From Alphaproteobacteria bacterium (GTDB lineage Bacteria; Pseudomonadota; Alphaproteobacteria; Micropepsales; Micropepsaceae), in assembly GCA_947473475.1 (NCBI GenBank), contig CANJBZ010000017.1:1-64000 (forward strand): 64,000 bases of DNA, in the 5' to 3' direction. Both the position numbers and the translations under genes were made by a program. Of the stretch, positions 24,964 through 53,821 are shown piece after piece. Every line of letters begins with the position of its first letter. Position 1 is the first letter of the stretch. The notes under the pieces are model-generated. The model searched no databases and was not told where the DNA came from. It saw only the letters and a program-made list of their open reading frames with translations.

Positions 24964-24974
24964 CTTGGCCTCCC

Positions 24975-31630: not shown

Positions 31631-31644
31631 GCCTGTCGTCCTGG

Positions 31645-33075: not shown

Positions 33076-33096
33076 ATCCTCCCTCGGCCGCGCACC

Positions 33097-34185: not shown

Positions 34186-34332
34186 CACCTCCCCCAACGC
34201 GGGGAGGTCGAAATTGGGAGCGCAGCGAGCAATTTCGGGTGGGGGGAGTGTGTCCAACGCGATACCCCCACCCGGCCTGCTTCGCGCGCGTGCGCGCTTC
34301 GCAAGCCGACCTCCCCGCAAGGGGGAGGTGAT
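34184..34332. repeat. GC-rich palindromic repeat overlapping the pyrD start
   Basis: Outer inverted ends ATCACCTCCCCC (34184-34195) and GGGGGAGGTGAT (34321-34332) enclose AACGCGGGGAGGTCGAAATT-like and CGACCTCCCCGC pieces plus a GC-rich centre (CGCGCGCGTGCGCGC). The proximal end contains the pyrD start codon. It fills the whole gap between pyrD and the CoxG-like gene. Confidence 0.8.
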
Positions 34333-34353
34333 TGGAAGAGGAGCGGCCCGCCA

Positions 34354-34956: not shown

Positions 34957-34965
34957 GTCTTTGTC

Positions 34966-36240: not shown

Positions 36241-37722
36241 TTAGCCTCTTGCCGCTTTGCCGGCCGCCGTTCCCGCGATTTTGCCAAACACCGAACCGGA
36301 GGTGAGGCCCGTGCCGCCCGGATAGTTGAAATAGAAAATACCGCCGACGAGTTCGCCTGCCGCATACAATCCTTCGATGGGCTGATAGTCGAGACTGACC
36401 ACTTGCCCCTCTTCGGTGATGCGCAAACCGCCAAAGGTGAACGTCACGCCGCAGGTGACCGCGTAACCTTCGAACGGCGGCGTATCGAGCGTGTTCGCCC
36501 AATTCGACTTTGGAACCGTCAGCCCTTCGGTGTGACGGCCGTCCTTGACGTTCGGGTTGAACGGAATGTCCTGACGCACGGCGGCATTGTATTCCGCAAC
36601 CGTCCTAACGAAGGCTTCCGCGTTCACGCCGTCGAGCTTCGTGGCCAACTCCTCGATCGTGTTCGCGGTGACCTTGGTGCATTGGCGGATATTGTACTCG
36701 TCGCGCTGCAGATGCTTGGTCTTCTTGTCCCAAATCTGCCATGCGAATTGACCGGGCTGCTCCAGCACCACGCGGCCATATTTCGCGTAGGTATAGTTGC
36801 GGAAGTCGGCGCCTTCATCGACGAAACGCTTGCCCGTCGCGTTCACCAGAACGGCAAACGGATAGGAGTGCTTCTGGAATTGATCGCCCACGGCGAGATC
36901 GCCAAATTCGGGCGCGTTCATTTCCCACTGCACGGCGTGACAGCCGGACCAGTTGCCGTACGGGCTGGCGCCGATGTCGAGCGCCATCTTAATGCCCGCG
37001 CCGTTGTTGAAGCGGCTGCCGCGAACTTTGGCCAAGTCCCAGCCGGGGCCTAGATAACGTGTACGCATTTCGGCATTGGCCTCGAAGCCGCCGCAGGCCA
37101 GCACAACCGCGCGCGCCTTCAATTCGCCGGTTTCGTTGCCGCATTTGAAGCGCACGCCAGAGACCCGCACACCGTCATAAACCAGATCGGTCGCCCGCGT
37201 GTTGTAGCGGATTTCGATGCCGTTCTTCTTGCCCGACGCGGTGAGCATGTCGACAAGGCCGGGGCCTCCGCCGACGGTTTCCAGCGTCAATCCGCCCCAG
37301 AACTTGAACTTGCCGTCGATCTTGAACGCCTGCCGTCCGTAAATCGGCACGAAGCGGATGCCTTTTTCACGCATCCAGATCAACGTCGGAAGGCTGCGCG
37401 TCACCAGCAATTCGCACAGCGCCGGATCGGTGCGGAATTGCGTCACCCGCGCCATATCGTCGAAGAACTGGTCCTGCGTGTAAGTGCCGAAGTCGGTGGT
37501 ATCGATTTCCGCCTGCGAGAGGTCGGGCACCAACTTCTTGATGTCATCGACGCCGTCATAGACGACGCGCATCGCGCCGGCCGTGAAGCGCGAATTGCCG
37601 CCGGATTCATCTTCGGGCGCCGCTTCCAGCATGAACACGGAAGCGCCCGCCTCCTGCGCCGCTAGTCCCGCGCAATAGGCCGCGTTTCCGCCGCCGACAA
37701 CGATGACATCGTATTCTTTCAT
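36241..37722 (-). CDS. FAD-dependent dehydrogenase, TcuA/fumarate reductase-like
   Basis: A 493-residue flavoprotein of the succinate dehydrogenase/fumarate reductase flavoprotein superfamily, closest in style to tricarballylate dehydrogenase TcuA. The FAD Rossmann motif is VIVVGGGNAAYCAGLAAQEAG (7-27), followed by GGNSRFTAGAMR; the C terminus has GGLRITEEGQVV and YAAGELVGGIFYFNYPGGTGLTSGSVFGKIAG. It probably adds or removes hydrogens across a C-C bond of a carboxylated intermediate. It is the first gene before the amidase. Confidence 0.86.
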   Translation of the reverse strand: MKEYDVIVVGGGNAAYCAGLAAQEAGASVFMLEAAPEDESGGNSRFTAGAMRVVYDGVDDIKKLVPDLSQAEIDTTDFGTYTQDQFFDDMARVTQFRTDPALCELLVTRSLPTLIWMREKGIRFVPIYGRQAFKIDGKFKFWGGLTLETVGGGPGLVDMLTASGKKNGIEIRYNTRATDLVYDGVRVSGVRFKCGNETGELKARAVVLACGGFEANAEMRTRYLGPGWDLAKVRGSRFNNGAGIKMALDIGASPYGNWSGCHAVQWEMNAPEFGDLAVGDQFQKHSYPFAVLVNATGKRFVDEGADFRNYTYAKYGRVVLEQPGQFAWQIWDKKTKHLQRDEYNIRQCTKVTANTIEELATKLDGVNAEAFVRTVAEYNAAVRQDIPFNPNVKDGRHTEGLTVPKSNWANTLDTPPFEGYAVTCGVTFTFGGLRITEEGQVVSLDYQPIEGLYAAGELVGGIFYFNYPGGTGLTSGSVFGKIAGTAAGKAARG

Positions 37723-37805
37723 TCTGCTCCCCAGTCTTCTCGGGCTCGCGCTTGAACGCGCCCCCTCAACCGTCCATGGCCGGGCTCGACCCGGCCACCC
37801 GCGGT

Positions 37806-37832
37806 CCCCCTCCCCCGCTACGCGGGGGAGGA
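37806..37832. repeat. Short GC-rich hairpin repeat between pyrE and the FAD-dehydrogenase gene
   Basis: Perfect 10-bp stem CCTCCCCCGC (37809-37818) / GCGGGGGAGG (37822-37831) with a TAC loop. A close relative, CCTCCCCCGT (38595-38604)/ACGGGGGAGG (38609-38618), lies on the other side of pyrE; the two are similar beyond the stems (CGCGGTCCCCCTCCCCCG). There is no T-run on the minus strand. Confidence 0.65.
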
Positions 37833-37839
37833 AATCTTT

Positions 37840-38538
37840 TTAAGCGCCGAAGCCGGCGGTTCCGCCGTGGGCTTTCGACCAGCCGCGCGGATCGTGCATG
37901 AAGGCTTCCACCTCGGCCAATTTATCCGGCGAAAATTTCTCGCTCTTCTTCGCAACCGCAAGCACATCCCACCAGGTGGCGAGCGCATGGTGCGTGACGC
38001 CCATGTCGGTCAGCGTTTTCAACCCTTCGGGGAAGATGTCATAGAAGAAGAACACGAACGTATGGTCGCATTTCACGCCCGCAGTGCGCAGCGCGTTGAT
38101 GAAATTCACCTTGCTGCCGCCGTCGGTGGTCATGTCTTCGACCAGCAGCACGCGCTGACCATCCTTCACTTCGCCTTCGATCTGCGCGTTGCGGCCGAAA
38201 CCTTTGGACTGCTTGCGCACATATTGCATCGGCAAAGTGAGCTTGTCGGCCATCCACGCAGCGAACGGGATGCCAGCGGTTTCACCACCGGCCACCGTGT
38301 CAAATGCTTCGAAGCCGACATCGCGGGCAAGAGTCGACGCCCCGAAATCGATGAGAGCCGAACGTACGCGCGGGAACGAAATCAGCCGGCGGCAATCGGT
38401 GTAAACCGGGCTGGCGAGGCCAGACGTAAAGATAAACGGCTTCTCGGAATAGAAGCGCACCGCTTCCACTTCGAGCAGCATTTTGGCGGTCAATTCCGCG
38501 ATGGTTTTCTTATCGGCAAAACTGGGCGATGCGATCAT
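37840..38538 (-). CDS. pyrE: Orotate phosphoribosyltransferase
   Basis: A 232-residue enzyme that joins orotate and PRPP to make OMP. The PRPP-binding loop is [14 protein letters not shown] and the [16 protein letters not shown] region matches the PyrE flexible loop. It lies just downstream of pyrC on the same strand, flanked by small palindromes. ATG 38538 ([11 protein letters not shown]) is the only sensible start. Confidence 0.94.
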
Positions 38539-38594
38539 CTGTTCCTGCTTTCAATACCGGAGAGAGCCCGCCCCCTCCACCGCTTCGCGGTCCC

Positions 38595-38618
38595 CCTCCC
38601 CCGTAACAACGGGGGAGG
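38595..38618. repeat. Short GC-rich hairpin repeat between pyrC and pyrE
   Basis: Perfect 10-bp stem CCTCCCCCGT / ACGGGGGAGG with a 4-base loop AACA, sibling of the hairpin at 37809-37831. The pair therefore brackets pyrE. Confidence 0.65.
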
Positions 38619-38621
38619 AAA

Positions 38622-39665
38622 TTAGGCGACGACTTTCCATTGAATTTGCTCTCCGCCGCGATGGATGAGAGCCCGTTCCTCCGGTCCGTTGACCTTCACT
38701 TCTTCCGGCGCAGTCCAGACCGTCTTTTCCAGCGTGATGGACTCGGCGTTGGGCGGCAGCCGGTAATGTTTCGGGCCGTTCAATGACGCAAAGGCCTCGA
38801 GCTTGTCCAGCGCGTTTTCTTCGGCAAAAACCTGCGCGTACGACTCGATGGCAACCGGCGAATTGAACAGGCCGGCAGCGCCCACCGTCGCCAGTTTCTT
38901 CGTCACGGGATGCGGCGCGGAGTCGGTGCCCAAAAAGAAATTGCTCTCGCCTTGGGTCGCTGCCTTGCGCAACGCATCACGGTCTTCCCGCCGCTTGATG
39001 ACGGGCATGCAATACATATAGGGCCGGTTGCCATACCCCAGCCAATCCGTGCGCGTCAGCATCAGATGATAGGGCGTGATCGTGCCGCCGAGCTGCGGCG
39101 CATGGGCGCGCACAAAATCCACACCCTCGCGTGAGGACACATGCTCCAGCACGATGCGTAAACCCGGAAAATCCTTCAGCATCGGCGTCAGACGGCGCTC
39201 GATGAACACTGCCTCACGGTCGAAAACGTCGATCTCTGGATCGGCTTCTTCGCCATGAATCAGAAAGGTCATCCCGATCTTTTCCATGCGCGCCAGCACC
39301 TGCCGGATACGCTGAAAATCGGTCACGCCATAGGCGGAATTCGTCGTCGCATTCGCGGGATACATCTTCACCGCCGTGAACACGCCTTCGCGAAAGCCCG
39401 TCTCCACATCGTCGGGATCGGTCGCGTCCGTCAGATAACAGGTCATCAACGGCTGGAAGGTGGACCCTTCCGGCAGCGCCGCCACGACGCGATCGCGATA
39501 GGCGATGGCCTCTTTCACGGTCAGCACAGGCGGCAGCAGGTTGGGCATGATGATCGCACGCCCAAAATTCGCCGCCGTGAACGGCAGCGCCGCCCGCAGC
39601 ATTGCCCCGTCCCGCACATGCAGGTGCCAGTCGTCAGGCTTGCGGATCGTGATGCGTTCCGCCAT
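38622..39665 (-). CDS. pyrC: Dihydroorotase (E. coli PyrC type)
   Basis: A 347-residue zinc enzyme that interconverts carbamoyl-aspartate and dihydroorotate. Metal and substrate residues are all visible: the HxH of DDWHLHVRDG, MPNLLPPV, the carbamylated-Lys motif VKMYPANATTNSAYGVTD, LIHGE, LEHVSSREGVDFV and GTDSAPHPVTKK. ATG 39665 (MAERITIRKPDDWHLH) gives the E. coli length; the upstream in-frame extension overlaps the previous gene. It lies 7 bases after the pyrD1B-like gene. Confidence 0.94.
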   Translation of the reverse strand: MAERITIRKPDDWHLHVRDGAMLRAALPFTAANFGRAIIMPNLLPPVLTVKEAIAYRDRVVAALPEGSTFQPLMTCYLTDATDPDDVETGFREGVFTAVKMYPANATTNSAYGVTDFQRIRQVLARMEKIGMTFLIHGEEADPEIDVFDREAVFIERRLTPMLKDFPGLRIVLEHVSSREGVDFVRAHAPQLGGTITPYHLMLTRTDWLGYGNRPYMYCMPVIKRREDRDALRKAATQGESNFFLGTDSAPHPVTKKLATVGAAGLFNSPVAIESYAQVFAEENALDKLEAFASLNGPKHYRLPPNAESITLEKTVWTAPEEVKVNGPEERALIHRGGEQIQWKVVA

Positions 39666-39672
39666 CTGCGTC

Positions 39673-40653
39673 CTACTCGGCCGGAACGAAGGTCTTGTGG
39701 CCTTGGCCGATCGGGGCAGCCGCAGCCGAGAACGTCTCGGCAATCGGATCGTTGACCATCGCGCCCGTCAATTGCGCCACGCGCTTGAAGCCGCGCTTGT
39801 CGCACCATTCCGCCAGCTCATCGATCATCGCGACGATGCCGGACGGATTACGGAAGATCAGATAGCCGATCATCACCGCCGACGCGCCGGCCAGCATGTA
39901 TTCGACAACGTCTTCGACCTTCACGATGCCGCCGCAGCCGATGACGGGAATTTTCACGCGCTGCGAAACCTGATGCACCATGCGCACGATGATTGGCTTC
40001 ACGCCGGGGCCGGAAATACCGCCGAATTTGTTGCCGATGGCGGGCCGGAACGTATCCAGATTGATCTTCAATCCCAGGATAGTGTTCGACACCACCAGCG
40101 CATTGGCGCCCGCTTCTTCCGCCGCCACACCGATGGCGACCACATCGCCCGCGTTCGGGGACAACTTCACCCACACCGGCTTGTTCGTGGCGCTGCGAAT
40201 GCGCTTCACGACGTTGAAGGTGTGATCCTCATGCATGGCGAAATTGCCGCCGCCCGGATTGCGGGTCGGGCAGGAGATGTTCACCTCGATGACGTCGACG
40301 TCCTTGTGTGAGGCGACTTCACGCGTCATCGCTTCGAAATCATCGGCCGTCGTCGCCGAAATCGAGCCCACCAGCGGCGGCGTGAATTGGGCGTATTCGG
40401 GAACCTGATGTTCCAGAAAGTAGCCGATGCCCTTGGTCGGCAGACCGATCGAATTGATCATGCCGCATTCCAGTTCCGCCACGCGCGGCGGCGGATTGCC
40501 GATGCGGTATTCCCGCGACACGGTCTTGGCGACCAGCGCGCCCAGGCGGTTCACGTCCATAACCTGCGCCAAATCGACCGAGAAGCACCCGGACGCCGGC
40601 ATGATCGGATTCTTAAGCTCGACGGACCCGACTTTTACCGAAAGGTCTACCAT
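39673..40653 (-). CDS. Dihydroorotate dehydrogenase 1B-like catalytic subunit
   Basis: A 326-residue FMN TIM-barrel protein of the class 1B dihydroorotate dehydrogenase family (NAD-linked, works with PyrK). It begins MVDLSVKVGSVELKNPIMPASGCFS; the catalytic Cys lies in VNISCPTRNPGGGNF, and FMN-binding IPVIGCGGI and AGASAVMIGYLIF follow. The C terminus is extended by about 30 residues (NDPIAETFSAAAAPIGQGHK). The host also has a class 2 enzyme, so this pair may reduce or oxidise another pyrimidine-like ring. The start at 40653 overlaps the end of the pyrK-like gene. Confidence 0.85.
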   Translation of the reverse strand: MVDLSVKVGSVELKNPIMPASGCFSVDLAQVMDVNRLGALVAKTVSREYRIGNPPPRVAELECGMINSIGLPTKGIGYFLEHQVPEYAQFTPPLVGSISATTADDFEAMTREVASHKDVDVIEVNISCPTRNPGGGNFAMHEDHTFNVVKRIRSATNKPVWVKLSPNAGDVVAIGVAAEEAGANALVVSNTILGLKINLDTFRPAIGNKFGGISGPGVKPIIVRMVHQVSQRVKIPVIGCGGIVKVEDVVEYMLAGASAVMIGYLIFRNPSGIVAMIDELAEWCDKRGFKRVAQLTGAMVNDPIAETFSAAAAPIGQGHKTFVPAE

Positions 40654-41513
40654 CCCGTGCACTCCTGCAGATCGAACACCGGGCCTTCGATGCAAACCCG
40701 GCGCAATTCCTTGTGACCGTCGACTTCAAAGGTGCGAACGCAGACGTAGCAGGGGCCAAGCCCGCACGCCATAATCTGCTCCATCGCCACCTGTCCCGGA
40801 ATCCCGTGTTTCACGCCCAACTCCTTCATCAGGAACATCAGGCGGTTGGAGCCGCAGGTATAAAAGGCATCGGCCTTCTTCGCCGCGATCAGCCGGTCCA
40901 GGATAGCGCGCACATTGGCGATGTCGCTGCTGCCGTCGCTATCCAGCACCTTAATGACCTCGCCGGACTTGCTGAACAGATCGTCCGCCATCACCAGATC
41001 GGCCGAGCGGGCCGACAGAATGGCCGTCACGCCGACGCCCATCTCCGCCGCAAGCTGCGAAATCGGCCCCATGGTGGCCAAACCGACGCCGCGCCCGAGC
41101 ACCACAACATTCTTGGCTCCGGGCTTCAGCGAAAAGCCGATGCCGAGCGGCCCCACCATGTTGCAGTCATCGCCCACCTTGAGGGTGGCCATACCGCGTG
41201 TGCCCCGGCCGACGCATTTGTAGAGGAATTCGAGGTTCCCGTTCTCCCGGTCGATCCGGTAGATGCTCTGGGGACGGCGCAGCCAGAGTTCGCCATCGTC
41301 GGGCGAGGGGCAGAGAATATTGAAGAACTGCCCTGGCTTAGCCTTCAACTGCTTGGGAGAGGCCTTCACGACCAAGTGCTTGTATTCCGCATTGACCCAA
41401 TCGTGGGACACGACCTTGCCCAGCGCCTCTTCGGCGGGGATTTCGGGCTTAGGGTCGGGCGGGTTCACCCCGTCAACGACGTAAGGACTTGCTGTAAATA
41501 CAGTTTTTGCCAT
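40647..41513 (-). CDS. PyrK-like electron transfer subunit
   Basis: A 288-residue FAD/[2Fe-2S] protein of the PyrK family, which links a 1B-type dihydroorotate dehydrogenase to NAD. The FAD-binding motif is LRRPQSIYRID and the nucleotide-binding loop is GRGVGLATMGP, divergent from the common GGGIG. The iron-sulfur cysteines are CGLGPCYVC followed by RRVCIEGPVF. An unusual N-terminal extension of about 45 residues (FTASPYVVDGVNPPDPKPE) precedes the ferredoxin reductase domain. ATG 41513 is chosen because the upstream codons run into the promoter region. It overlaps its catalytic partner by seven bases. Confidence 0.86.
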   Translation of the reverse strand: MAKTVFTASPYVVDGVNPPDPKPEIPAEEALGKVVSHDWVNAEYKHLVVKASPKQLKAKPGQFFNILCPSPDDGELWLRRPQSIYRIDRENGNLEFLYKCVGRGTRGMATLKVGDDCNMVGPLGIGFSLKPGAKNVVVLGRGVGLATMGPISQLAAEMGVGVTAILSARSADLVMADDLFSKSGEVIKVLDSDGSSDIANVRAILDRLIAAKKADAFYTCGSNRLMFLMKELGVKHGIPGQVAMEQIMACGLGPCYVCVRTFEVDGHKELRRVCIEGPVFDLQECTGW

Positions 41514-41528
41514 TTGGCTAAGACTCGC

Positions 41529-41560
41529 GCGCGGCTGGATACCCCCCATTCAAGCCGCGC
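41529..41560. promoter_or_regulatory. Palindrome in the divergent pyrK/cupin promoter region
   Basis: GCGCGGCT (41529-41536) and AGCCGCGC (41553-41560) are perfectly complementary across 16 bases, about 16 bases upstream of the pyrK-like start codon. It could be an operator or a leader hairpin. The rest of the 194-base gap (41514-41707) contains an AT-rich patch around 41568-41590, the likely promoter zone for both directions. Confidence 0.4.
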
Positions 41561-41707
41561 ATCGTACAAAAATCAACCAAAATCCTTTTTTTGGTACAGT
41601 TGGTCACAACGACATGAAGCGTTGGCCGCGCCACACCCGTTGCCCTTGACGAGGGGGCATAACGGCCTGAAAACACTTCCATCATCATTGAACCAAAGGA
41701 ACCACCC

Positions 41708-42310
41708 ATGGCCGCAACCCCGGAAGGCGCCGCCGCACCAGCAGAGGACGGCATCGCCAATCCCAAGCACAACCAGGACGTTCCCGTCGTCTGGGAACGC
41801 TGGCAGCGCAAACGCACCTTCGTCCGTGCCCTGGAAGGCACCTACAGCCATCTGACCAAGGAGCTGCTGGACGCGCCGCGCGTCATTTCATCCAAGAGCG
41901 TGCCTTGGAAAGGCGGCCCCAATCTCTACGGCAAGCACCCCATTGCGCCGGGCGCCGCCGCCAAAATCACCCAGGCCATTGAGTGCCACGTCGAAGCCTA
42001 TGCCCCCGGCGCGTACAGCCAGAAGCACGGGCATCTGAACTCCGCCTGCTTCTACATTATCAAGGGCCGCGGCCATGACATTCACGACGGCCGCAAAATT
42101 CCCTGGAAGGCCGGCGATATCATGCAAGTCGAAAACGGCTGCGTGCATCAGCACTTCAATGACGATCCGGACAATGAAGCGATTTTGCTCGTCTTCAAGG
42201 CGAAGCCGCTCTTCCTGTTCATGCACCTGCTCTACCAGAAGATGATTTCCTATCCTCCCAACACGCTGCCCAAGGGGCATGAGGATTGGACGCCCCCGAC
42301 GGATCTCTAA
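41708..42310 (+). CDS. Cupin-domain protein 1 of a tandem pair
   Basis: A 200-residue protein with a central cupin domain: YSQKHGHLNSACFYIIKGRG (about 98-117, with the HxH and a following acidic position replaced by Ala-Cys) and AGDIMQVENGCVHQHFNDD. The layout resembles one half of gentisate 1,2-dioxygenase-type bicupins. ATG 41708 has AAGGAA about eight bases upstream. It is followed 29 bases on by a second cupin gene; the two may form a hetero-oligomer. No reaction can be assigned. Confidence 0.78.
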   Translation: MAATPEGAAAPAEDGIANPKHNQDVPVVWERWQRKRTFVRALEGTYSHLTKELLDAPRVISSKSVPWKGGPNLYGKHPIAPGAAAKITQAIECHVEAYAPGAYSQKHGHLNSACFYIIKGRGHDIHDGRKIPWKAGDIMQVENGCVHQHFNDDPDNEAILLVFKAKPLFLFMHLLYQKMISYPPNTLPKGHEDWTPPTDL

Positions 42311-42339
42311 GAAAATCAGCGCTACCGGAGAATATGGAA

Positions 42340-42885
42340 ATGACAGTCCTTGAAGAACGCGACGTCGCTCACCTCGGCAACAAGACCGCGACGTTCCGCG
42401 CCGACGACATCCGCGCGTCCGCGGAATTCCGCAAAGCCTATGAGTTCGCGCCCAACGTGGTGGCCGCGGAAGACCAGCCGTTCGAGAATTCGCCCGACGG
42501 CCTGATCAAGCATCTCGTGCACGAAAAGATGGGCACGCGCGAACAATGCGTCGATGCCTATATGCTGTTCCTCAAAGAGGGCGCGCAGTCGGGCAAGCAC
42601 CGCCATATGTGGGAAGAAGTGATCTTCGTCGCCGAAGGTTCGGGCTACGACCTGCACTGGGACGTGAAGTTCGATTGCATCGACACCTACAGTTGGGAAT
42701 GGGAAGCCGAACCGAAGAAATCCGAATGGCAGCGCGGCGATTTCATTTACATCCCGCCCTACTCGATCCATCAGCATTTCAACACGGGCAAAGAAGAAGC
42801 GCGGCTGATCGTCATCAGCAATCGCATCGTCAAAGCGATGGGCTTCAACTGGCTCGACCAGGTGGAGCACGCACCGGGATTTTAA
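42340..42885 (+). CDS. Cupin-domain protein 2 of a tandem pair
   Basis: A 181-residue cupin. Motif 1 is GAQSGKHRHMWEEVIFVAEGSG with the full HxH...E set of metal ligands (unlike cupin 1), and motif 2 is FIYIPPYSIHQHFN. ATG 42340 is preferred since CCGGAG at 42325-42330 stands nine bases upstream; ATG 42334 is also in frame but only three bases from that site. It ends HAPGF. Likely function: a metal-dependent dioxygenase-like or isomerase step in the same pathway as the neighbouring genes; this is inference. Confidence 0.8.
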   Translation: MTVLEERDVAHLGNKTATFRADDIRASAEFRKAYEFAPNVVAAEDQPFENSPDGLIKHLVHEKMGTREQCVDAYMLFLKEGAQSGKHRHMWEEVIFVAEGSGYDLHWDVKFDCIDTYSWEWEAEPKKSEWQRGDFIYIPPYSIHQHFNTGKEEARLIVISNRIVKAMGFNWLDQVEHAPGF

Positions 42886-42896
42886 ATCCGGCAACG

Positions 42897-42928
42897 CCCC
42901 GCTTCACGCGTCTGTGTTGCGGGGTTTT
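42897..42928 (+). terminator. Possible terminator after the cupin pair
   Basis: CCCCGC (42897-42902) can pair with GCGGGG (42919-42924), followed by TTTTCC. The stem is short and the 16-base loop is long, so the call is tentative. Confidence 0.4.
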
Positions 42929-43010
42929 CCACCGGCGCGCTTTAGATAAGACGGGTAGCTAAAGCGCCACGGGCAAAACGGGGCGTGAACCGGGGGGAGC
43001 AAAGCCGCCG

Positions 43011-45035
43011 ATGGAAGGCCAATTCGCTATGGCGGTCCATGCGCTTCAGCTATTGCTGGAGTGGCATCGACTGCTCATTCTCGTTCTAGGTGTAGTGATC
43101 GGACTGGCCATTGGCTGCATGCCGGGGTTGGGCGGCGTGGTCGCGCTCGCCGTGCTTATTCCGTTTACGTACAATCTCGACGCGCCCACATCGTTTGCGC
43201 TTCTGCTCGGCGTTGCCGCGGTAACGACGACGTCCGATTTGATACCCGCGGTCTTGTTCGGCGTGCCCGGCACGGTCGGCGCCGCCGCAACCGTCATCGA
43301 CGGTCATGCCATGGCCCGGCGAGGCGAGGCTGGCCGTGCCTTCGGCGCCGGCTTTGTCTCCGCCGCTGTCGGCGGCATTTTCGGCGCGCTGGTGCTGGCC
43401 CTGGCCGTACCGCTGTTGCAACCCCTAATGCTGGCGATCGGATCGCCCGAACTGCTGGCGTTCAGCATTTTCGGATTGTCGATGGTCGCGACTCTTTCCG
43501 GCCGCGCGCCGCTGAAAGGTCTGACGGCCGCGGGCGTCGGGCTGATGATTTCCATGATCGGCTCCGGCACGCAAACCGGTACGCTGCGCTGGACATTCGA
43601 TTGGCTGTATCTGTTCGACGGCGTGCCGCTGATCCCGGTGACACTGGGACTGTTTGCTCTTCCGGAACTGGCGGACATGGCGATCAACCGCCGCAAGATC
43701 GCGAGCGGCGCCATCGCGGAGGTGAACCTGTCCAGCCAGTGGGAGGGCGTGCGCGACGTCTATCGCAATTGGTGGCTGGTGCTGAAGTGCAGCGCGCTGG
43801 GCACCGCGCTCGGCGTCGTGCCCGGTATCGGCTCGGCGGTGATCGACTGGATCGTTTACGGCTATGCCGTGCGCACGGAGAAAAATCCGGAGCGTTTCGG
43901 GACGGGCGATGTGCGCGGCGTGATCGCGCCGGAATCTTCAAACAACGCGAAGGAAGGCGGGCATCTGGTCCCAACCATCGCCTTCGGCGTGCCTGCCGGC
44001 GCGTCCATGACGCTGCTGCTGGGGGCATTCCTGCTGCACGGACTGACGCCCGGTCCGGACATGCTGACCAAAAATCTGGACATCACCTATTCGATCATCT
44101 GGAGCCTGACGATCGCCCATGTGCTCGGCACGGCGATTTGTCTCGTCGGCGCACGGCAACTCGCGCGCTTTGCCGAGATGCGGCACGCGATCCTACTGCC
44201 GATGGTCATGCCGATCGTGTTTGTCGCGACCTTTCAGGCGACGCGTAGCTGGGGCGACCTGTACTTCCTGCTGTTCTTCGGCATTGTCGGCTGGATCATG
44301 AAGCGCTTCGCCTGGCCGCGTCCGCCGATGGTGCTGGGCTTCGTGCTGGGCCCGATCTTCGAACGCTATCTCTTTCTGTCGAACGAAATTTATGGCGCGA
44401 GCTGGATGCTGCGCCCCGTCGTCATCGGCATCGCCATCCTGATTGCCTGGGCGCTGTATCGCCCCTTGGGTGGCACGGTCGTACGCTTGGTGCATGAATT
44501 CCGGCATCTGTCGCGTGAGCATTTGAAGCTCAACGGGAAAGCGATCTTCACGCTGTTCCTGATCGCCCTGATCGTCGCCGCTTTGATCACATCGTCCGGT
44601 TGGCCGGAGATCGAGCAAATCGTTCCGCGCACCGCGTGCTGGGCGGCCCTCATCGTCGCAACCCTGAACCTCATCACGGAAATTTTTGGCGCCGATCAGG
44701 CCGCGACGACTGTGGCCGGCCATGGGCATGCGCTTGAAGAAAAAAGCGACCTGCCGATGGGTGTTATCGTTCGCCGCGCCGTGGAGTTTTTCGGCTGGCT
44801 GATCGGCCTTGTCGCGCTCGCCGCTCTTATTGGCTTTATTCCGGCCATCGGCGTGTTCGTGGTTATCTATATGGGCATCGGCTTCCGCGAGCCGTTGCCG
44901 CGCGCCATTGTGTTCGGCGCGGCCATGACGCTGTTCTGCTACGCGCTGTTCGACCGTGGTCTTTCGGTGCCGTGGCCGCAGGCCGTTCTGGGCGATTGGG
45001 TGCCCGCGCTGCGCGATGCCAGCGGCTTGATGTAG
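43011..45035 (+). CDS. Fused TctA-TctB tripartite tricarboxylate transporter permease
   Basis: A 674-residue membrane protein. Residues 1-~495 are a TctA large permease (IGCMPGLGGVVALAVLIPFTYNLD, VLFGVPGTVGAAATVIDGHAMA, VPGIGSAVIDWIVYG, FGVPAGASMTLLLGAFLLHGL). After a linker (~500-525) a C-terminal region of about 150 residues with four hydrophobic segments (GKAIFTLFLIALIVAALITS...FVVIYMGIGFREPLPRAIVFG) matches a TctB small subunit, normally a separate gene. With the TctC gene 45 bases downstream this makes a complete carboxylate importer. ATG 43011 or ATG 43029 could be the start. Confidence 0.86.
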   Translation: MEGQFAMAVHALQLLLEWHRLLILVLGVVIGLAIGCMPGLGGVVALAVLIPFTYNLDAPTSFALLLGVAAVTTTSDLIPAVLFGVPGTVGAAATVIDGHAMARRGEAGRAFGAGFVSAAVGGIFGALVLALAVPLLQPLMLAIGSPELLAFSIFGLSMVATLSGRAPLKGLTAAGVGLMISMIGSGTQTGTLRWTFDWLYLFDGVPLIPVTLGLFALPELADMAINRRKIASGAIAEVNLSSQWEGVRDVYRNWWLVLKCSALGTALGVVPGIGSAVIDWIVYGYAVRTEKNPERFGTGDVRGVIAPESSNNAKEGGHLVPTIAFGVPAGASMTLLLGAFLLHGLTPGPDMLTKNLDITYSIIWSLTIAHVLGTAICLVGARQLARFAEMRHAILLPMVMPIVFVATFQATRSWGDLYFLLFFGIVGWIMKRFAWPRPPMVLGFVLGPIFERYLFLSNEIYGASWMLRPVVIGIAILIAWALYRPLGGTVVRLVHEFRHLSREHLKLNGKAIFTLFLIALIVAALITSSGWPEIEQIVPRTACWAALIVATLNLITEIFGADQAATTVAGHGHALEEKSDLPMGVIVRRAVEFFGWLIGLVALAALIGFIPAIGVFVVIYMGIGFREPLPRAIVFGAAMTLFCYALFDRGLSVPWPQAVLGDWVPALRDASGLM

Positions 45036-47249: not shown

Positions 47250-48539
47250 CTACTCAGCCGGCGCCTCGACGGGCAAGCGCACCGCCATCCGCCGGGCGGC
47301 GATGGCGGTCAGGATGCTGACCGCGGCGGCAGCGGAGAGCCACAGCGCGGGCGAGGCCCGGTCACCCGTGGTGCTGATAAGCACCGTCACGATAAACGGC
47401 GTGAAGGTGCCGAACAGCCCGTTGGCGAAGCTCAAAATGATCGCATAGCCGGAGCTTCGGACCTTGGCTGGCATCAATTCGACGATAAACGGCACCAGCG
47501 ACCCGGCATACATCGCGTAAAGAATGGCCAGCCAGAATTCCACCACCAGCAGCCGCCCGAAACTCGGGGCGGCCACCAGCCACGACATGGCGGGGTAGGC
47601 TGTGAGGAGCACCAGCACGGGCGCGCCAATCAACAGCGGCCAGCGGCCGATACGGTCGGACAGCGCGCCAAAGGCCGGTAGCATGACGAAGCTGGCCGTG
47701 CCGACGCACAGCGCAACGGAAAAATTGCCGACGGGATCCAGCTTGAGCAGGCTCCCATACAGCGCCGTGTACGTGTTCACGAAGTAGAACATCGTGGTGT
47801 TCAGGATCGTCAGCAAAATGCCGATCAAAACCACCTGCCAATGTTCCAGGAGAATACGCAGAATCTCGCGCGTGCTGCGGGCATGGGTGCTGCGCTCGAA
47901 TTCCTCCGTCTCCTGCAGCGACCGCCGCAGCCAGAATAGGATCGGAATAATAAGGCACCCAACCAGCAACGGAATGCGCCAACCCCAGGCCGCCATTTCG
48001 TCCATGGTCAGTGTCAGCGTCAGCAGCACGCCGAGGAAGGTTGCGGCCATCACGCCAAGCGCCTGACTGGAACCCTGAAAGGCGCAGTAAAATCCACGGG
48101 TCGCAGGCGTCGCGATTTCGGCGAGATAGACGTTCACGCCCCCCGCTTCGACGCCCAGGGAAAAGCCCTGGATCAGCCGGCCCAGCGTGATGATGATCGG
48201 CCCCAATAGGCCGATTGCCGCATAAGTCGGCGTTATCGCCAGAGACACCGTGCCGATGGCCATCAAGGTCAGCGTCAGGATCAGGCCTTTGCGCCGTCCG
48301 TGGCGATCCATATAGGAGCCGAGAATCACCGCCCCGAAAGGACGCGCGAACGAGGCAACGCCATAGGTGCCAAGCGCGATCAGCAGGGGCGTCAACTCGC
48401 CGCCCGCCGGAAAAAACGCCAGCCCGATGTAATTGGCGAAATAGGCGTAGACGAGAAAATCGTAGAGTTCGAGAAAATTGCCCGACCCGGCGCGAATGAC
48501 AGCGCCCATCTTCTCTTTGCGTTGCGCGGCGGTCAGCAT
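47250..48539 (-). CDS. MHS-family MFS transporter, copy 3 of 3
   Basis: A 429-residue major facilitator of the metabolite:H+ symporter (MHS) type, relatives of citrate, ketoglutarate and proline carriers. It shares the N terminus MLTAAQRKEKMGAVIRAGSGNFLELYDFLVYAYFANYI with the two upstream paralogues, and has the loop motif FGAVILGSYMDRHGRRKGL. Its start lies one base after the stop of copy 2. Final gene of the nitrile hydratase-like operon. Confidence 0.88.
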   Translation of the reverse strand: MLTAAQRKEKMGAVIRAGSGNFLELYDFLVYAYFANYIGLAFFPAGGELTPLLIALGTYGVASFARPFGAVILGSYMDRHGRRKGLILTLTLMAIGTVSLAITPTYAAIGLLGPIIITLGRLIQGFSLGVEAGGVNVYLAEIATPATRGFYCAFQGSSQALGVMAATFLGVLLTLTLTMDEMAAWGWRIPLLVGCLIIPILFWLRRSLQETEEFERSTHARSTREILRILLEHWQVVLIGILLTILNTTMFYFVNTYTALYGSLLKLDPVGNFSVALCVGTASFVMLPAFGALSDRIGRWPLLIGAPVLVLLTAYPAMSWLVAAPSFGRLLVVEFWLAILYAMYAGSLVPFIVELMPAKVRSSGYAIILSFANGLFGTFTPFIVTVLISTTGDRASPALWLSAAAAVSILTAIAARRMAVRLPVEAPAE

Positions 48540-48540
48540 C

Positions 48541-49854
48541 TCACGCCGCCATCGCGGGCTGCGCCGCGTGCCCTGGTTGCAGGCCCGGCGTCGCCGTCAC
48601 GCTGCGCCCGAGGATCGCTGCCGTCAGGCTGATAGCCGCTGCCAGCGACAACCAAAGGGCCGGGGCCGCGCTATTGCCCGTCACCTTGATGAGATAGGTG
48701 GAAACGAAGGGCGTGAAGCCGCCAAAGATCGCCGTCGCCGTCACGAAGGCCAGCGCAAATCCGGTTGTGCGCACCTTTTGCGGCATCATTTCGGCCAGCA
48801 TCGGGATCATCGAACCGTTGTAGACGCCGAAGATGAAGGAGAGCCACAGCTCGACACCGAGCAGCTTGCCGAAGGTCGGCGCCACAACCAGCCACGACAT
48901 CAGCGGATAGGCGGTGAGCAGCGCCAGCACGGGAATGATGAACAGAAGCGGCCGCCGCCCGATGCGATCCGAAATGGCGCCGCCGACCGGCAACCAGAAG
49001 AAATTCGACGCCCCGACGCATAGGGTAACGATCATCACCGAAACCGGATCGAGATGCAGCGCCTGGGTGCCGAAGGTCGGCGTGTATACAGTGATCGTAT
49101 AAAACGTCGTCGTCGTAAGAATCGACATCATCACGCCAAGGCCGACCAGCCGCCAATTGGCCGCGATCAGCCGCAGCACTTCGCTCGTGGCTTCAGGGGG
49201 GCTCGAGCAGAGGAAGGCTTCGGTTTCCTGAAGCGAGTTTCTGAGCCAGAACACCAGTGGAATGATCGCGCAGCCGATCAGCAATGGGATTCGCCAACCC
49301 CACAGCGTCATCTGCTCGGGCGGCAGGATGTAAGTGAGCGCCACACCAAGTGCTGCCGACAGCATCACCGCCACTTGCTGACTGCCGGACTGCCAGGCGC
49401 AATAGAAACCACGATTTCCCGGCGTTGCGATTTCGGCCAGATAGACGGAACAGCCGCCAATTTCCACGCCCGAGGAGAAGCCCTGGATGACGCGCCCCGT
49501 CACAATGATGATGGGCGCCAAGATACCCAGCGTTTCATAGCCGGGCGTAAAGGCAATCGAAGCGGTGCCGACCGCCATCAACGCGAGGGACAGGATCAAT
49601 CCCTTGCGGCGGCCTTTTCTATCCATGTAATCGCCGATGACGATGGCCCCGATCGGCCGCACCAGGAAGCCGGCGCCATACGCCAGCAGCGCCTGCATCA
49701 GCGAGACCATTTCATTGTCAGCGGGGAAAAACGTGCGCGCGATATAGCTGGCGTAATAACCGTAGATGATGAAGTCGTACATTTCGAGGAAGTTGCCCGC
49801 CGACACGCGGATCACCGCATTGATCTTGGCCCGGCGTTCCGCTGGCGTGAGCAT
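48541..49854 (-). CDS. MHS-family MFS transporter, copy 2 of 3
   Basis: A 437-residue MHS carrier. It begins MLTPAERRAKINAVIRVSAGNFLEMYDFIIYGYYASYI and has GAIVIGDYMDRKGRRKGL between helices 2 and 3 and an ending ATPGLQPGHAAQPAMAA. ATG 49854 is preceded by GGGAGG; an extension of nine codons upstream has no ribosome-binding site. It lies 30 bases after copy 1. The acidic and basic residues typical of proton symport in this family are in helices 1 and 4. Confidence 0.88.
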   Translation of the reverse strand: MLTPAERRAKINAVIRVSAGNFLEMYDFIIYGYYASYIARTFFPADNEMVSLMQALLAYGAGFLVRPIGAIVIGDYMDRKGRRKGLILSLALMAVGTASIAFTPGYETLGILAPIIIVTGRVIQGFSSGVEIGGCSVYLAEIATPGNRGFYCAWQSGSQQVAVMLSAALGVALTYILPPEQMTLWGWRIPLLIGCAIIPLVFWLRNSLQETEAFLCSSPPEATSEVLRLIAANWRLVGLGVMMSILTTTTFYTITVYTPTFGTQALHLDPVSVMIVTLCVGASNFFWLPVGGAISDRIGRRPLLFIIPVLALLTAYPLMSWLVVAPTFGKLLGVELWLSFIFGVYNGSMIPMLAEMMPQKVRTTGFALAFVTATAIFGGFTPFVSTYLIKVTGNSAAPALWLSLAAAISLTAAILGRSVTATPGLQPGHAAQPAMAA

Positions 49855-49884
49855 GTTTCCTCCCAGTCCCCATTCAACCAAAGT

Positions 49885-51186
49885 CTATTTTACAAAAGCC
49901 GGTCGCGTAGTCCCGCTTCTCGCCGTCTGCACGGCCGGCAGGATGAACGCAGCAATAAGACTGATTAGCGCAGCCAAGGATAGCCACAAAGCGGGGGCTG
50001 CGCGATTGCCGGTAACTTCGATGAGATAGGTACCGATCGCCGGCGTGAACCCGCCGAAGATGGCGGTGGCCGTGACGAAGGCCAGCGAAAAAGCCGCGGT
50101 GCGAACCTCGTGCGGCATGATCTCCGCCAACAAGGGGATCAGCGCCCCATTGTAGAGCCCGAAATACACCGAATAGAGCATCAGCACCGCGACCAGCTTC
50201 GCGAAAGAGGGCCCATCGACCAGCCAGACCATCGCCGGGTAGACCGTGACCAGTGCGGCCGCCGTAACCCCGAGCATAAGGGGACGCGCCCCGTATTTGT
50301 CGGTGAGAATGCCGCCGACCGGCAACCATATCAGATTGGACAATCCCACCAGCAACGTCACCAGAAAGACCGTGTTCGGGTCCATGTGCAGGGCGGTACG
50401 GGCATAGGTCGGCGTGTAGGCGGTGATGAGGTAGAAGCTCGTGGTCGTCATTACGGTTAACGCGACACCGTTCAGGATCAGCTTCCAATTCGCGGCGAGG
50501 ATGGACAGGACTTCCGAGGTCGAGCGCACATGGCGGCTGTGCTTGAAGGCTTCGGTCTCTTGCAGTGAATTCCGAATCCATAGGATCAACGGAATGGCAA
50601 TGATGCCGGCGAACAACGGCACGCGCCAACCCCAGGACGTCATTTGCGCCGGCGTCATCCAGAGCGTCAATGCAAAGCCGAACGCCGCCGAGAACACCAC
50701 GGCCACCTGCTGACTCACCGCCTGCCAGGAGCAATAAAAGCCGCGCCGTCCGGGCGTTGCGATTTCCGCGAGATAAATCGCAACGCCGCCGAATTCCGCG
50801 CCGGCGGAAAGGCCCTGCACCAAGCGTCCCGCCACGATCAAAATCGGGGCGAGCACCCCAATGGTCGCATAGCTGGGCGTCACCGCGATCGAGAGCGTGC
50901 CGGCCGCCATGAGACCAAGCGTCAGGATCAAGCCCTGCTTGCGCCCCTTTCGGTCCATGTAAGCACCCAGGAAAATGGCGCCCAGGGGACGCATGAGAAA
51001 ACCGGCGCCGTAGACGACGAGGGCATTCATCAACGAGGCGAATTCGGTTCCGGCGGGAAAGAAGGTCGCCGCGATGTAGTTCGCGTAATAGCCGTAGATG
51101 ATGAAGTCGTACGCCTCGATGAAATTGCACGAGGCGACCTTCACGACGGCGCGGACTTTGGCGCGGCGTTCGGCGGGCGTGAGCAT
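49885..51186 (-). CDS. MHS-family MFS transporter, copy 1 of 3
   Basis: A 433-residue MHS carrier beginning MLTPAERRAKVRAVVKVASCNFIEAYDFIIYGYYANYI, with GAIFLGAYMDRKGRKQGL. Its ATG overlaps the TGA of the nitrile hydratase-like alpha gene (ATGA), a translational coupling that ties this carrier to that enzyme, probably for import of the nitrile or export/import of the resulting acid or amide. Three similar carriers in a row suggest either different substrates or recent duplication. Confidence 0.88.
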   Translation of the reverse strand: MLTPAERRAKVRAVVKVASCNFIEAYDFIIYGYYANYIAATFFPAGTEFASLMNALVVYGAGFLMRPLGAIFLGAYMDRKGRKQGLILTLGLMAAGTLSIAVTPSYATIGVLAPILIVAGRLVQGLSAGAEFGGVAIYLAEIATPGRRGFYCSWQAVSQQVAVVFSAAFGFALTLWMTPAQMTSWGWRVPLFAGIIAIPLILWIRNSLQETEAFKHSRHVRSTSEVLSILAANWKLILNGVALTVMTTTSFYLITAYTPTYARTALHMDPNTVFLVTLLVGLSNLIWLPVGGILTDKYGARPLMLGVTAAALVTVYPAMVWLVDGPSFAKLVAVLMLYSVYFGLYNGALIPLLAEIMPHEVRTAAFSLAFVTATAIFGGFTPAIGTYLIEVTGNRAAPALWLSLAALISLIAAFILPAVQTARSGTTRPAFVK

Positions 51187-51863
51187 CAGCCGGCCGACGG
51201 AAGCGCGACGCCGATCATGGAATCGCGGCTGATGAGCGCTTCGAGCTGTTCAGCGCTCTTGCCCTCCGTGCCTTTGGGCTGCATCGGCAGCACGAGATAG
51301 CGCATGTCGGCCGTGGAATCGTGTACGCGGACTTCCACATTGCCGGGAAGCTGGGTGCCGAACTCCGCCAGCACGGCGCGCGGCTCGCGCACCACGCGGG
51401 CACGATATTCGCGCTGCTTGTACCAGGACGGCGGCAAGCCCAGCACGTTGCGCGGATAACAGGAGCAGAGCGTGCAGACGATGACGTTGTGCGTTTGCGG
51501 CGTATTCTCCACGACCACCAGATGCGTGCCGCCCATGTCGAGGCCGAATTCGCGGATGGCTTCCGATCCGTCGGCCAGCAGGCGCGCTTTGTAGGCGGGA
51601 TCGGTCCAGGCGCGCGCCACGATTTTCGCACCCGTCGCCGGGGTGATGGAGTCGCGGAATTCGATCGCTTTGCGGATTTCATCCGGCGTAATCACGCCCT
51701 TTTCGACCAGCAGCTCTTTCAGCGCCAGACCGAGCACTTGATAATAGGAATGGATTTTCTCGTCGGGCTGCGGCGGCGCATGCGGCGCGGTTTCGTCGGC
51801 CCCGTGGTCATGATCGTGGTCGTGTCCATGGTCATGGTCGTGATCGTGGGTGTGTTCCTGCAT
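51186..51863 (-). CDS. Nitrile hydratase/thiocyanate hydrolase alpha-type subunit, cobalt type
   Basis: A 225-residue metal-binding subunit. The metal claw is VCTLCSCYP with Cys130, Cys133, Ser134 and Cys135; Thr between the first two cysteines marks the cobalt type, and the cysteines are normally oxidised. It carries a remarkable N terminus with His at every second position from 4 to 20 (HTHDHDHDHGHDHDHDH). It would hydrate nitriles to amides, or hydrolyse thiocyanate, with the two beta-type proteins encoded upstream. ATG 51863 lies 5 bases after the upstream gene. No activator (P47K or P14K type) gene is evident nearby. Confidence 0.92.
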   Translation of the reverse strand: MQEHTHDHDHDHGHDHDHDHGADETAPHAPPQPDEKIHSYYQVLGLALKELLVEKGVITPDEIRKAIEFRDSITPATGAKIVARAWTDPAYKARLLADGSEAIREFGLDMGGTHLVVVENTPQTHNVIVCTLCSCYPRNVLGLPPSWYKQREYRARVVREPRAVLAEFGTQLPGNVEVRVHDSTADMRYLVLPMQPKGTEGKSAEQLEALISRDSMIGVALPSAG

Positions 51864-51868
51864 GACCG

Positions 51869-52150
51869 TTAGACCTTGATGAGCCAATGTTCGTAGATGT
51901 CCATGTCCAGCGTATCGTTGGCGCTGCCTTGGTAATCCGGCCACAGATCGGCTTGGCGGAAACGCACCTCGTACAGCCCCTTTTTCGGCAGGCCGTCGCG
52001 CCCGATGGCCAGCGTTTCGGGATTGGGAAACGTGCCCAATTTGCGCGTGACCACGCCTTGATGACCGCGGATGTAAACCGGCGTGCGAATATGGCCGACG
52101 GGGAAATCCTCCCGCACGCGAATGCGGGTACCGGGTGCGAATTCGGACAT
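51869..52150 (-). CDS. Nitrile hydratase beta subunit, C-terminal half as a separate gene
   Basis: A 93-residue protein equal to the SH3-like C-terminal domain of nitrile hydratase beta (FAPGTRIRVREDFPVGHIRTPVYIRGHQGVV; YEVRFRQADLWPDYQGSANDTLDMDIYEHWL). It is encoded apart from the N-terminal half, whose TAA overlaps this gene's ATG by one base (TAATG). In thiocyanate hydrolase and in toyocamycin nitrile hydratase the beta part is likewise split in two. Confidence 0.9.
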   Translation of the reverse strand: MSEFAPGTRIRVREDFPVGHIRTPVYIRGHQGVVTRKLGTFPNPETLAIGRDGLPKKGLYEVRFRQADLWPDYQGSANDTLDMDIYEHWLIKV

Positions 52151-52461
52151 TAGGCGGCGTCCTGCCCAAGCCGGGCGCGCACTTCCGCCACTTTGGCGTC
52201 GATTTCGTCCTGCGTCAGCACGCCCTTCTCGATCAGCACGCGCGACAGCGACGCCGTCCAGCGCTCGTAATAGGAGAGCGTGTTGTAGGCGTCATCGCCG
52301 AGCTGCTCGATATAACGGCGGTTCTCGTCTGTCTTGCGAAAGCCCTTCTGCGCCATGAGCTGATTCAGGGCGTCGATCTGCTTTTCCCAGAAGGTCATAG
52401 GATGAGCGCCGGTATCAACCGGCCCCGCCTCCAGCCCCCCAATATCGTGCGGCCCGCGCAT
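52150..52461 (-). CDS. Nitrile hydratase beta subunit, N-terminal half as a separate gene
   Basis: A 103-residue helical protein matching the N-terminal part of nitrile hydratase beta: MRGPHDIGGLEAGPVDT, then FWEKQIDALNQLM and YNTLSYYERWTASLSRVLIEKGVLTQDEI. The last segment is the classic YYERW...LLxEKGV beta/activator signature. ATG 52461 follows AGGGGA. It is the first gene of the operon: beta N-half, beta C-half, alpha, three MHS carriers. Upstream lies a nested palindromic repeat. Confidence 0.9.
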   Translation of the reverse strand: MRGPHDIGGLEAGPVDTGAHPMTFWEKQIDALNQLMAQKGFRKTDENRRYIEQLGDDAYNTLSYYERWTASLSRVLIEKGVLTQDEIDAKVAEVRARLGQDAA

Positions 52462-52524
52462 GGTTTCCCCTGATTTTTGTCGTTGGCTAAAGGGTAGTCT
52501 ATCGAACGGGCAAGGCCAACTCCT

Positions 52525-52698
52525 ACCCTCCCCTTGAGGGTCGAACGCGACGTAGCCCGAAGGGCGAAGTCGGGTTCGGGGAGGGGACTTGACCCATATC
52601 TCCCCTCCCCGAAATTGCTGATGCAATTTCGAGCTACGGGCGGGAAAAATTTCCACTGGACCTTTTCCCCTTCGCCCTCCGACCCTCAAGGGGAGGGT
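52525..52698. repeat. Nested palindromic element, copy 2
   Basis: A 174-base element with perfect 19-bp inverted arms (52525-52543 and 52680-52698) containing CTCCCCTTGAGGG, and an inner palindrome TTCGGGGAGGGGA / TCCCCTCCCCGAA followed by AATTGCTGATGCAATT. The same outer and inner sequences occur in the element at 26886-27022. It fills the divergent gap between the nitrile hydratase-like operon and the amidohydrolase gene. Confidence 0.85.
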
Positions 52699-52753
52699 GA
52701 GGACGTGGACCTCAGGAATGGTATGTTGCTTCAAAAGCAGCACGGGGAAGAAG

Positions 52754-53821
52754 ATGAACGCGGCGCATTGGCGGCACATGGATCGGCTGGCGAAACCGCT
52801 CACAAGGCGGGAGACGTTGGCCGGATTGAGCGCGCTGGGGGCTGCGGCGACGCTGGCTCCGCTGGTTTCGCAAGCTGCCGCGCCGGCGGCGCGCGCCATC
52901 GACTTTCATCACCATTTCAATCCGCCTTTCCTGGTGAACGCGGCAGCCCAGAACCGGGTTGGCGGCAATGGCGGCGAACTGAATTGGAGCCTCGCCTATT
53001 CGCTGGAAGACATGGACAAGGCGGGCATTCGCGCCGCTGTCATCTCGCCCTCGACGGGCTTTGCCGAACGGGTTGAACCCGCCGCGCGCGGCCCCATGAT
53101 CCGGCGCGTCAACGATTACGGCGCGGAGCTGGTGCGCGATCATAAGAGCCGCTTTGTGCAGCTCGTTTATCTACCGCTGCCCGATGTCGACGCGACGCTG
53201 AAGGAAATCGAATATGGCTTCGACACGCTGAAGGTCGTGGGCGCGGGCTTTGCCACCTCCTACGGCCCCGACTACCCGCACAATCCCAAATTCGCGCCCG
53301 TCTTCGAAGAACTGAACCGCCGCAAGGCCATTGCCTATTTCCACCCGCTGGCGCCCGCGTGTTGCACCCGCGTCTTCACGGATTTTCCGGAGGAAGCCAA
53401 CCTCGTCGAAATTCCCTACGACACGGCGCGCACGGTGATGGGCTTCCTATTGTCGGGCGCGTTCCGCCGTTACCCCGACATCAAGTTCGTGTTCTCGCAT
53501 TCGGGCGGCGCGGTGCCCATGCTGGCCGGCCGCTTCAAGCGGCTGACGCAGAATACAGACCTGTCCAAGGTCGCGCCCGAAGGCTTGGATGCGGAATTCC
53601 GCAAGCTCTACTACGAGACGGCCAACGCCAATTCCCCGCCGACAATCGCCGCGCTGCTGAAATTCGCGCCGGTCTCGCAGGTGATGTTCGGCAGCGATCA
53701 TCCCTACGTCTCGGACGTGGACAATCTCGCGGACCTGCGCTCCTGCGGCCTGACGCAAGCGCAGATGAACGCGATCCTCTATGAAAACGTCGAACGCCTG
53801 ATCCCTGCGCTGAAGGCGTAA
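52754..53821 (+). CDS. Tat-exported amidohydrolase (ACMSD-like, amidohydrolase_2)
   Basis: A 355-residue metal-dependent hydrolase or decarboxylase. The N terminus has a Tat-like signal (LTRRETLAGLSALGAAATLAPLVSQAAAP). The barrel keeps its ligands: DFHHHFNPP (HxH), YFHPLAP (His), FSHSGGAVP (His) and GSDHPY (Asp). The family includes aminocarboxymuconate semialdehyde decarboxylase and gamma-resorcylate decarboxylase, so a ring-derived acid is a plausible substrate. ATG 52754 follows GGGGAAG. It is divergent from the nitrile hydratase-like operon. Confidence 0.86.
   Translation: MNAAHWRHMDRLAKPLTRRETLAGLSALGAAATLAPLVSQAAAPAARAIDFHHHFNPPFLVNAAAQNRVGGNGGELNWSLAYSLEDMDKAGIRAAVISPSTGFAERVEPAARGPMIRRVNDYGAELVRDHKSRFVQLVYLPLPDVDATLKEIEYGFDTLKVVGAGFATSYGPDYPHNPKFAPVFEELNRRKAIAYFHPLAPACCTRVFTDFPEEANLVEIPYDTARTVMGFLLSGAFRRYPDIKFVFSHSGGAVPMLAGRFKRLTQNTDLSKVAPEGLDAEFRKLYYETANANSPPTIAALLKFAPVSQVMFGSDHPYVSDVDNLADLRSCGLTQAQMNAILYENVERLIPALKA

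Follow-up and report, generated by a model that had tools for sequence, protein, structure and literature searches.

Analysis of a 64,000-nt stretch of DNA (hereafter, the window) identified three adjacent minus-strand genes whose products, judged by an alpha subunit with a VCTLCSC motif and by both beta domains scoring over their cut-offs, constitute an enzyme of the cobalt-type (Co-type) nitrile hydratase superfamily with its beta subunit divided into an N-terminal (betaN) and a C-terminal (betaC) protein. On balance, we lean toward a three-subunit Co nitrile hydratase that acts on a small polar or anionic nitrile, probably not on thiocyanate, and that is co-expressed with TcuC-type symporters. 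Activator-less three-subunit nitrile hydratases are already known: AnhD-AnhE-AnhA of Streptomyces canus works without an accessory protein (PMC13243292), and ToyJKL is also three-subunit (PMC12648386). The broad clade in which the metal motif is followed by Arg or Lys (Arg/Lys clade), with trimmed subunits and with thiocyanate hydrolase (SCNase) nested inside it, appears to be new; no paper describing this split clade was found in a search of the openly accessible literature.

The first gene of the operon, betaN (52150..52461, minus strand), encodes the N-terminal half of nitrile hydratase beta in 103 aa (PF21006, 77.9 bits; cut-off, 21.5), and a ribosome-binding-site-like AGGGG (52467..52471, minus strand) was read in the sequence 5 nt ahead of its ATG. 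betaC (51869..52150, minus strand) encodes the SH3-like C-terminal half in 93 aa (PF02211, 73.6 bits; cut-off, 27.7), and alpha (51186..51863, minus strand), the predicted catalytic cobalt-binding subunit, has 225 aa (PF02979, 275.9 bits; cut-off, 27.2). The metal site VCTLCSCYPR was located in the translation at alpha residues 129–138 (51450..51479, minus strand), and the alpha N-terminus, MQEHTHDHDHDHGHDHDHDHG... (51774..51863, minus strand), is His-rich, with 10 His within residues 1–30. The sequence-only reading had described a three-gene enzyme with a split beta (103 and 93 aa) and a cobalt-type alpha, and both the Pfam matches over cut-off and the directly read motif bear this out; it had overlooked the His-rich start of alpha and the three MFS genes coupled to the operon. 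betaN and betaC meet in TAATG, betaC and alpha are separated by 5 nt, and alpha meets the following transporter gene MFS1 in TGATG, where the start overlaps the alpha stop; from these junctions, betaN, betaC, alpha, and MFS1 look translationally coupled. Searches around the operon for promoter-like sites and Rfam families gave no hits. The genome from which the window derives (99% complete, 66 contigs) contains one alpha gene and a single PF21006 (betaN-type) domain.

To place the operon, loci were collected by scanning the contigs of this genome, its relatives, the phylum, Actinomycetes, Streptomyces, and plasmids and were classed by domain order. In ordinary loci, beta was fused and the genes ran alpha-beta-activator or beta-alpha-activator. 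The order betaN-betaC-alpha without an activator and with Arg or Lys after CSCYP was found in 45 non-redundant rows, window included, mostly from Alphaproteobacteria. The Arg/Lys rows derived from Alpha- and Betaproteobacteria, Nitrospinota, Rubrobacter, Myxococcota, Planktothrix, and one Streptomyces plasmid. The alpha gene was absent from four further genomes in the genus and from 30 in the family, and its distribution is therefore patchy. Streptomyces has another three-gene group, marked by CSCYP[LIV], which adjoins either 4-hydroxyphenylpyruvate dioxygenase (several loci) or QueC/QueD/QueE (L221 and L223); in many Streptomyces genomes (L171, L172, L173, and other loci), a conserved CSCYP[LIV]R three-gene enzyme lies just downstream of the dioxygenase gene. 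Rearranged gene orders were also observed. In genome G060, betaN is fused to alpha in one frame in both copies (L086:1063-2148 and L093:1483-2721), a rearrangement of the split enzyme. In Microvirga terrae (L131:5590-6941), the order is betaC-alpha-betaN, and the next genes encode an aquaporin-like protein and a nickel/cobalt transporter; the same two genes follow the enzyme on a Streptomyces plasmid (L128).

Trees were built from alpha (146 rows) and from concatenated betaN-betaC-alpha (102 rows, to which SCNase of PDB entry 2dd4 contributes alpha and betaN columns only), and the two agree. Since no SCNase over the equivalog cut-off was present in 398 genomes of the phylum, 2dd4 and an annotated plasmid scnC (L130; TIGR03887, 356.8 bits) served as SCNase references. 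The Arg/Lys enzymes formed a single clade (98 SH-aLRT in the alpha tree; 100/100 in the concatenated tree), within which six rows grouped together (100/100): the window, its two sister species, and three MAGs of proteobacteria. An 8-row SCNase subclade (100/100), consisting of 2dd4, actinobacterial fused-beta relatives, and Roseomonas and Prescottella loci, is nested in the same Arg/Lys clade on a long stem (0.84), with the Streptomyces-plasmid and Microvirga loci as its neighbors (99/92). A tree constrained to unite the Arg/Lys and the Streptomyces three-gene groups was not rejected (p = 0.44), so the split may have arisen once or twice.

The sequence-only reading had proposed a third lineage beside SCNase and toyocamycin nitrile hydratase, to be checked by phylogeny. 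The window clustered neither with the SCNase subclade, a grouping that was rejected when forced (AU p = 0.0018), nor, in the concatenated tree, with the ordinary W-type nitrile hydratases or with the toyJKL-type Streptomyces clade that holds the ToyJKL proxy loci. To this extent, the proposal holds, but SCNase is nested in the same 100/100 clade and the window lineage is therefore not independent of it; this lineage is also common, comprising about 45 non-redundant loci, and activator-less three-subunit enzymes were already published. On the trees, the window lineage looks ancestral or sister to SCNase, and SCNase appears to have arisen from a widespread Arg/Lys nitrile hydratase branch. This places SCNase inside a large group of activator-free split nitrile hydratases and makes the origin of SCN- hydrolysis from nitrile hydration testable.

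Three separate betaN, betaC, and alpha genes, the layout that had been likened to thiocyanate hydrolase and toyJKL, were indeed shared with both systems. ToyJKL of Streptomyces rimosus was represented by L221 and L223, whose QueC/D/E-linked setting fits the description of toyJKL (PMC12648386). These loci have the betaN-betaC-alpha gene order, a lost linker, and no visible activator, as in the window, but they differ from it in a Val/Ile/Leu pocket, few His at the alpha N-terminus, a separate Streptomyces clade, and other neighbors; the deazapurine neighborhood of QueC/D/E type is absent from the window, where MFS, amidohydrolase, mod, and kelch genes are found instead. AnhDEA, compared by its published description, resembles the window in that AnhD and AnhE match the beta N- and C-terminal fragments, but it reportedly groups with the enzyme of S. 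rimosus (PMC13243292).

The residues lining the predicted pocket were compared across the trees. Alpha Arg138 aligns with ScnC Arg136, and Trp occupies the equivalent position in the PDB 3vyg chain. The residue after the metal motif is Arg or Lys in every member of the Arg/Lys clade and mostly Trp in ordinary nitrile hydratases. The pocket class (Arg/Lys, Leu/Ile/Val, or other) requires only two changes on the tree. In betaN, Asn47-Arg48-Arg49 (52315..52323, minus strand) was located by alignment column counts. Arg48 is universal and is the equivalent of the catalytic betaArg52 of nitrile hydratase, while Arg49 (ScnB-92 column) is Arg in 80 of the 85 unthinned Arg/Lys rows and mostly His or Phe elsewhere. 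Asn47 occupies the position of ScnB Arg90. ScnC Arg136 and ScnB Arg90 are the residues that we take to control SCNase selectivity; with Arg138 present and ScnB Arg90 replaced by Asn47, the window has one of the two SCNase arginines. The changes in alpha and betaN fall together on few branches, and their pattern is descriptive rather than an independent statistical association. Together, Arg138 and the additional clade-typical betaN Arg would render the pocket more basic than that of W-type nitrile hydratases. Because the pocket Arg is also the SCNase state, a basic pocket alone cannot separate nitrile from thiocyanate.

Downstream of alpha, the operon continues with three tandem MFS genes on the minus strand that scored over the TcuC-type carboxylate/H+ symporter cut-off (NF011656; cut-off, 445): MFS1 (49885..51186; 603.2), MFS2 (48541..49881; 628.4), and MFS3 (47250..48539; 527.9). 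These paralogs (47250–51186) are separated by few-base gaps and are 49–64% identical to one another (MFS2 to MFS1, 62–64%), and their TcuC homology does not fix what they transport. An MFS1 homolog (71% identity) follows alpha in the sister species G005, where the tight coupling of the genes is kept, and none adjoins alpha in G006; the association was seen within this genus only. On the opposite strand, a divergent Amidohydro_2 protein (52697..53821, plus strand; PF04909, 99.6 bits) has a homolog near the operon of G005 (73%). No amidase or cobalt transporter adjoins the window operon, though a NicO transporter and amidases occur elsewhere in the genome, and neither was a conserved neighbor across the Arg/Lys clade. 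Among individual clade members, L076 and L080 have an amidase-family gene 11 bp past the end of alpha. In L062 (1402-5255), a biuret amidohydrolase (NF050097, 413.8 vs. 370 bits) comes directly after the split enzyme, with an allophanate hydrolase next. Such neighbors point to the conversion of nitriles to amides by at least some clade members. The L062 operon suggests an unreported route, e.g., from cyanourea or dicyanamide to biuret, and ABC-transporter-like genes were observed upstream of its split nitrile hydratase.

Based on these features, the preferred reading can be described as follows. The enzyme would be a heterotrimer with a beta permanently split into betaN and betaC. Alpha CTLCSC would bind non-corrin Co(III) with two cysteines presumably oxidized, as in the family, and betaN Arg48 and conserved betaC arginines may hold the oxidized claw. 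A nitrile delivered by the co-expressed TcuC-type symporters would be activated by the metal, and water would be added to its C-N triple bond. From family membership, we predict with good confidence a Co-type center that hydrates a C-N triple bond. The basic pocket and the carboxylate/H+ symporter together suggest that the substrate is a small nitrile of polar or anionic character.

SCNase and an ordinary broad-range nitrile hydratase are the main rivals of this reading. It is rather unlikely that the enzyme is functionally an ordinary hydratase of aliphatic and aromatic nitriles whose split beta and pocket Arg arose neutrally. The enzyme shares its domains, VCTLCSC, and the catalytic beta Arg with the Co-type enzymes of Pseudonocardia thermophila, Bacillus smithii, and Pseudomonas putida. 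Its alpha also passed the TIGR01323 nitrile hydratase alpha equivalog (269.2 vs. 249.85 bits) and has ordinary Co-type nitrile hydratases as its top PDB matches (at most 247 bits, against 185 for ScnC), and the split S. canus enzyme hydrates sulfoxaflor (PMC13243292). The ordinary enzymes differ in having a fused beta with a 24–57 aa linker, a dedicated activator gene, and mostly a CSCYPW pocket. Against this rival, the Arg/Lys residue is invariant throughout a deep, diverse clade that carries a second typical Arg in betaN, suggesting a shared pocket constraint.

A divergent thiocyanate hydrolase, with the same Co center converting SCN- to carbonyl sulfide and ammonia, is unlikely. SCNase ScnB-ScnA-ScnC of Thiobacillus thioparus (2dd4) has betaN, betaC, and alpha chains in the same order, CTLCSCYPR with the pocket Arg, and a His-rich alpha N-terminus, and it belongs to the same deep clade; the best PDB match of betaN was ScnB (2dd4_B), followed by nitrile hydratase betas, and betaC matched nitrile hydratase betas and ScnA. 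On the other hand, the window alpha stays below the TIGR03887 (ScnC) equivalog cut-off (223.6 vs. 291.45 bits), which the annotated scnC passes, and lies outside the SCNase subclade with its long stem. ScnB Arg90, present in SCNase, is Asn in the window, and the activator present in SCNase (P15K type) has no counterpart. The beta parts, described earlier as shorter than in the known enzymes, do lack the N-terminal extensions of ScnB (157 aa) and ScnA (126 aa), the window matches starting at ScnB 45 and ScnA 35. Cyanase was not found in the genome, but SCNase needs no cyanase.

The maturation of the enzyme was considered next. The activator gene, of which the sequence-only reading had seen none, is absent genome-wide: TIGR03889 (P14K activator) had no match in the 99%-complete genome, while control relatives G042 and G046 were positive, and the single PF21006 domain is betaN itself. 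In ordinary Co-type enzymes, the activator and alpha associate as alpha(P14K)2, and the metal is brought in through self-subunit swapping (PMC4709657). BetaN is a weak homolog of the activator (TIGR03889; E value, 8e-6) and similarly small. For ToyL, maturation on alpha alone has reportedly been described. We therefore infer a route without a P14K/P15K-type activator, in which plausibly either the freestanding betaN takes the activator role or alpha matures alone. If betaN acts as the activator, alpha-betaN could be the cobalt-loading intermediate that betaC then turns into the active enzyme, which would account for the lack of an activator gene in the split lineage. A fuller proposal, in which betaN is both subunit and activator, the lineage hydrates small cyano anions, and SCNase derived from it, seems quite unlikely as a whole; the candidate substrates would be cyanourea-, dicyanamide-, or cyano-carboxylate-like, and one member's operon has biuret and allophanate hydrolases. 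With only three independent pairs, no statistical coupling between the split and the loss of the activator could be demonstrated. A His-rich alpha tail was weighed as an activator substitute and judged weak. Ordinary alphas with activators have such tails as well (at least four His in 40% vs. 62%), and the activator-less Streptomyces clade is without them; the tail is unlikely to be a general answer to maturation. Maturation of a cobalt nitrile hydratase without an activator also becomes testable in this group, and a naturally trimmed, self-maturing enzyme would be practical for biocatalysis.

Farther along the same strand, a gene cluster (27922–45035) encodes a molybdenum hydroxylase (CoxL/XDH-like subunits), a CoxG-like protein, a UbiD-family decarboxylase, PyrD, an amidase, a TcuA-like dehydrogenase, PyrE, PyrC, and a second dihydroorotate dehydrogenase with its electron-transfer subunit, followed by divergent TctA-TctB. 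This cluster looks like the catabolism of an orotate-like N-heterocycle. At 22651–25140, a molybdopterin-binding protein was observed with MoCoBD_2 segments seemingly both before and after MoCoBD_1, a permuted, IorB-like arrangement. It is very doubtful that the operon is part of this N-heterocycle catabolism (genes at 27–42 kb), with a heteroaromatic or carboxylated nitrile as its substrate: the XDH-family, amidase, TcuA-like, PyrC/PyrD/PyrE, and TctAB genes lie about 10–24 kb away and the operon MFS genes are of TcuC type, but several kb of other genes intervene, and the 19 kb surrounding the operon in G006 show mod and kelch genes, with heterocycle genes not recognized.

That the operon is a nonfunctional nitrile hydratase whose fused beta is decaying or frameshifted is scarcely credible, for although a few ordinary loci do have a broken beta, their linker is intact (30–42 aa), whereas here the linker is deleted, starts and stops overlap, and sizes are kept with dN/dS well below 1 across three species. 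The same three genes were found in two other species of the genus with the same sizes (103, 93, and about 211 aa) and 70–79% identity, so the operon does not represent a frameshifted fused beta. In comparisons of the window with the two sister species, dN/dS was about 0.13–0.26 over the three genes and about 0.13–0.19 for betaN, which has 103 aa in both; all three genes are under purifying selection. The inter-domain linker of fused betas has a median of 36 aa (range, 24–57), compared to 11.7 aa-equivalents in split betas and 10.7 in the window. Approximately 25 linker residues were lost in the Arg/Lys split clade, and the linker is largely gone in both three-gene groups. Seven ordinary W-type nitrile hydratases (L049, L051, L065, L067, L075, L107, and L039; A N C type) also have beta in two frames but retain the full linker of 30–42 aa, and these are probably frameshifts or recent breaks rather than members of the true split lineage.
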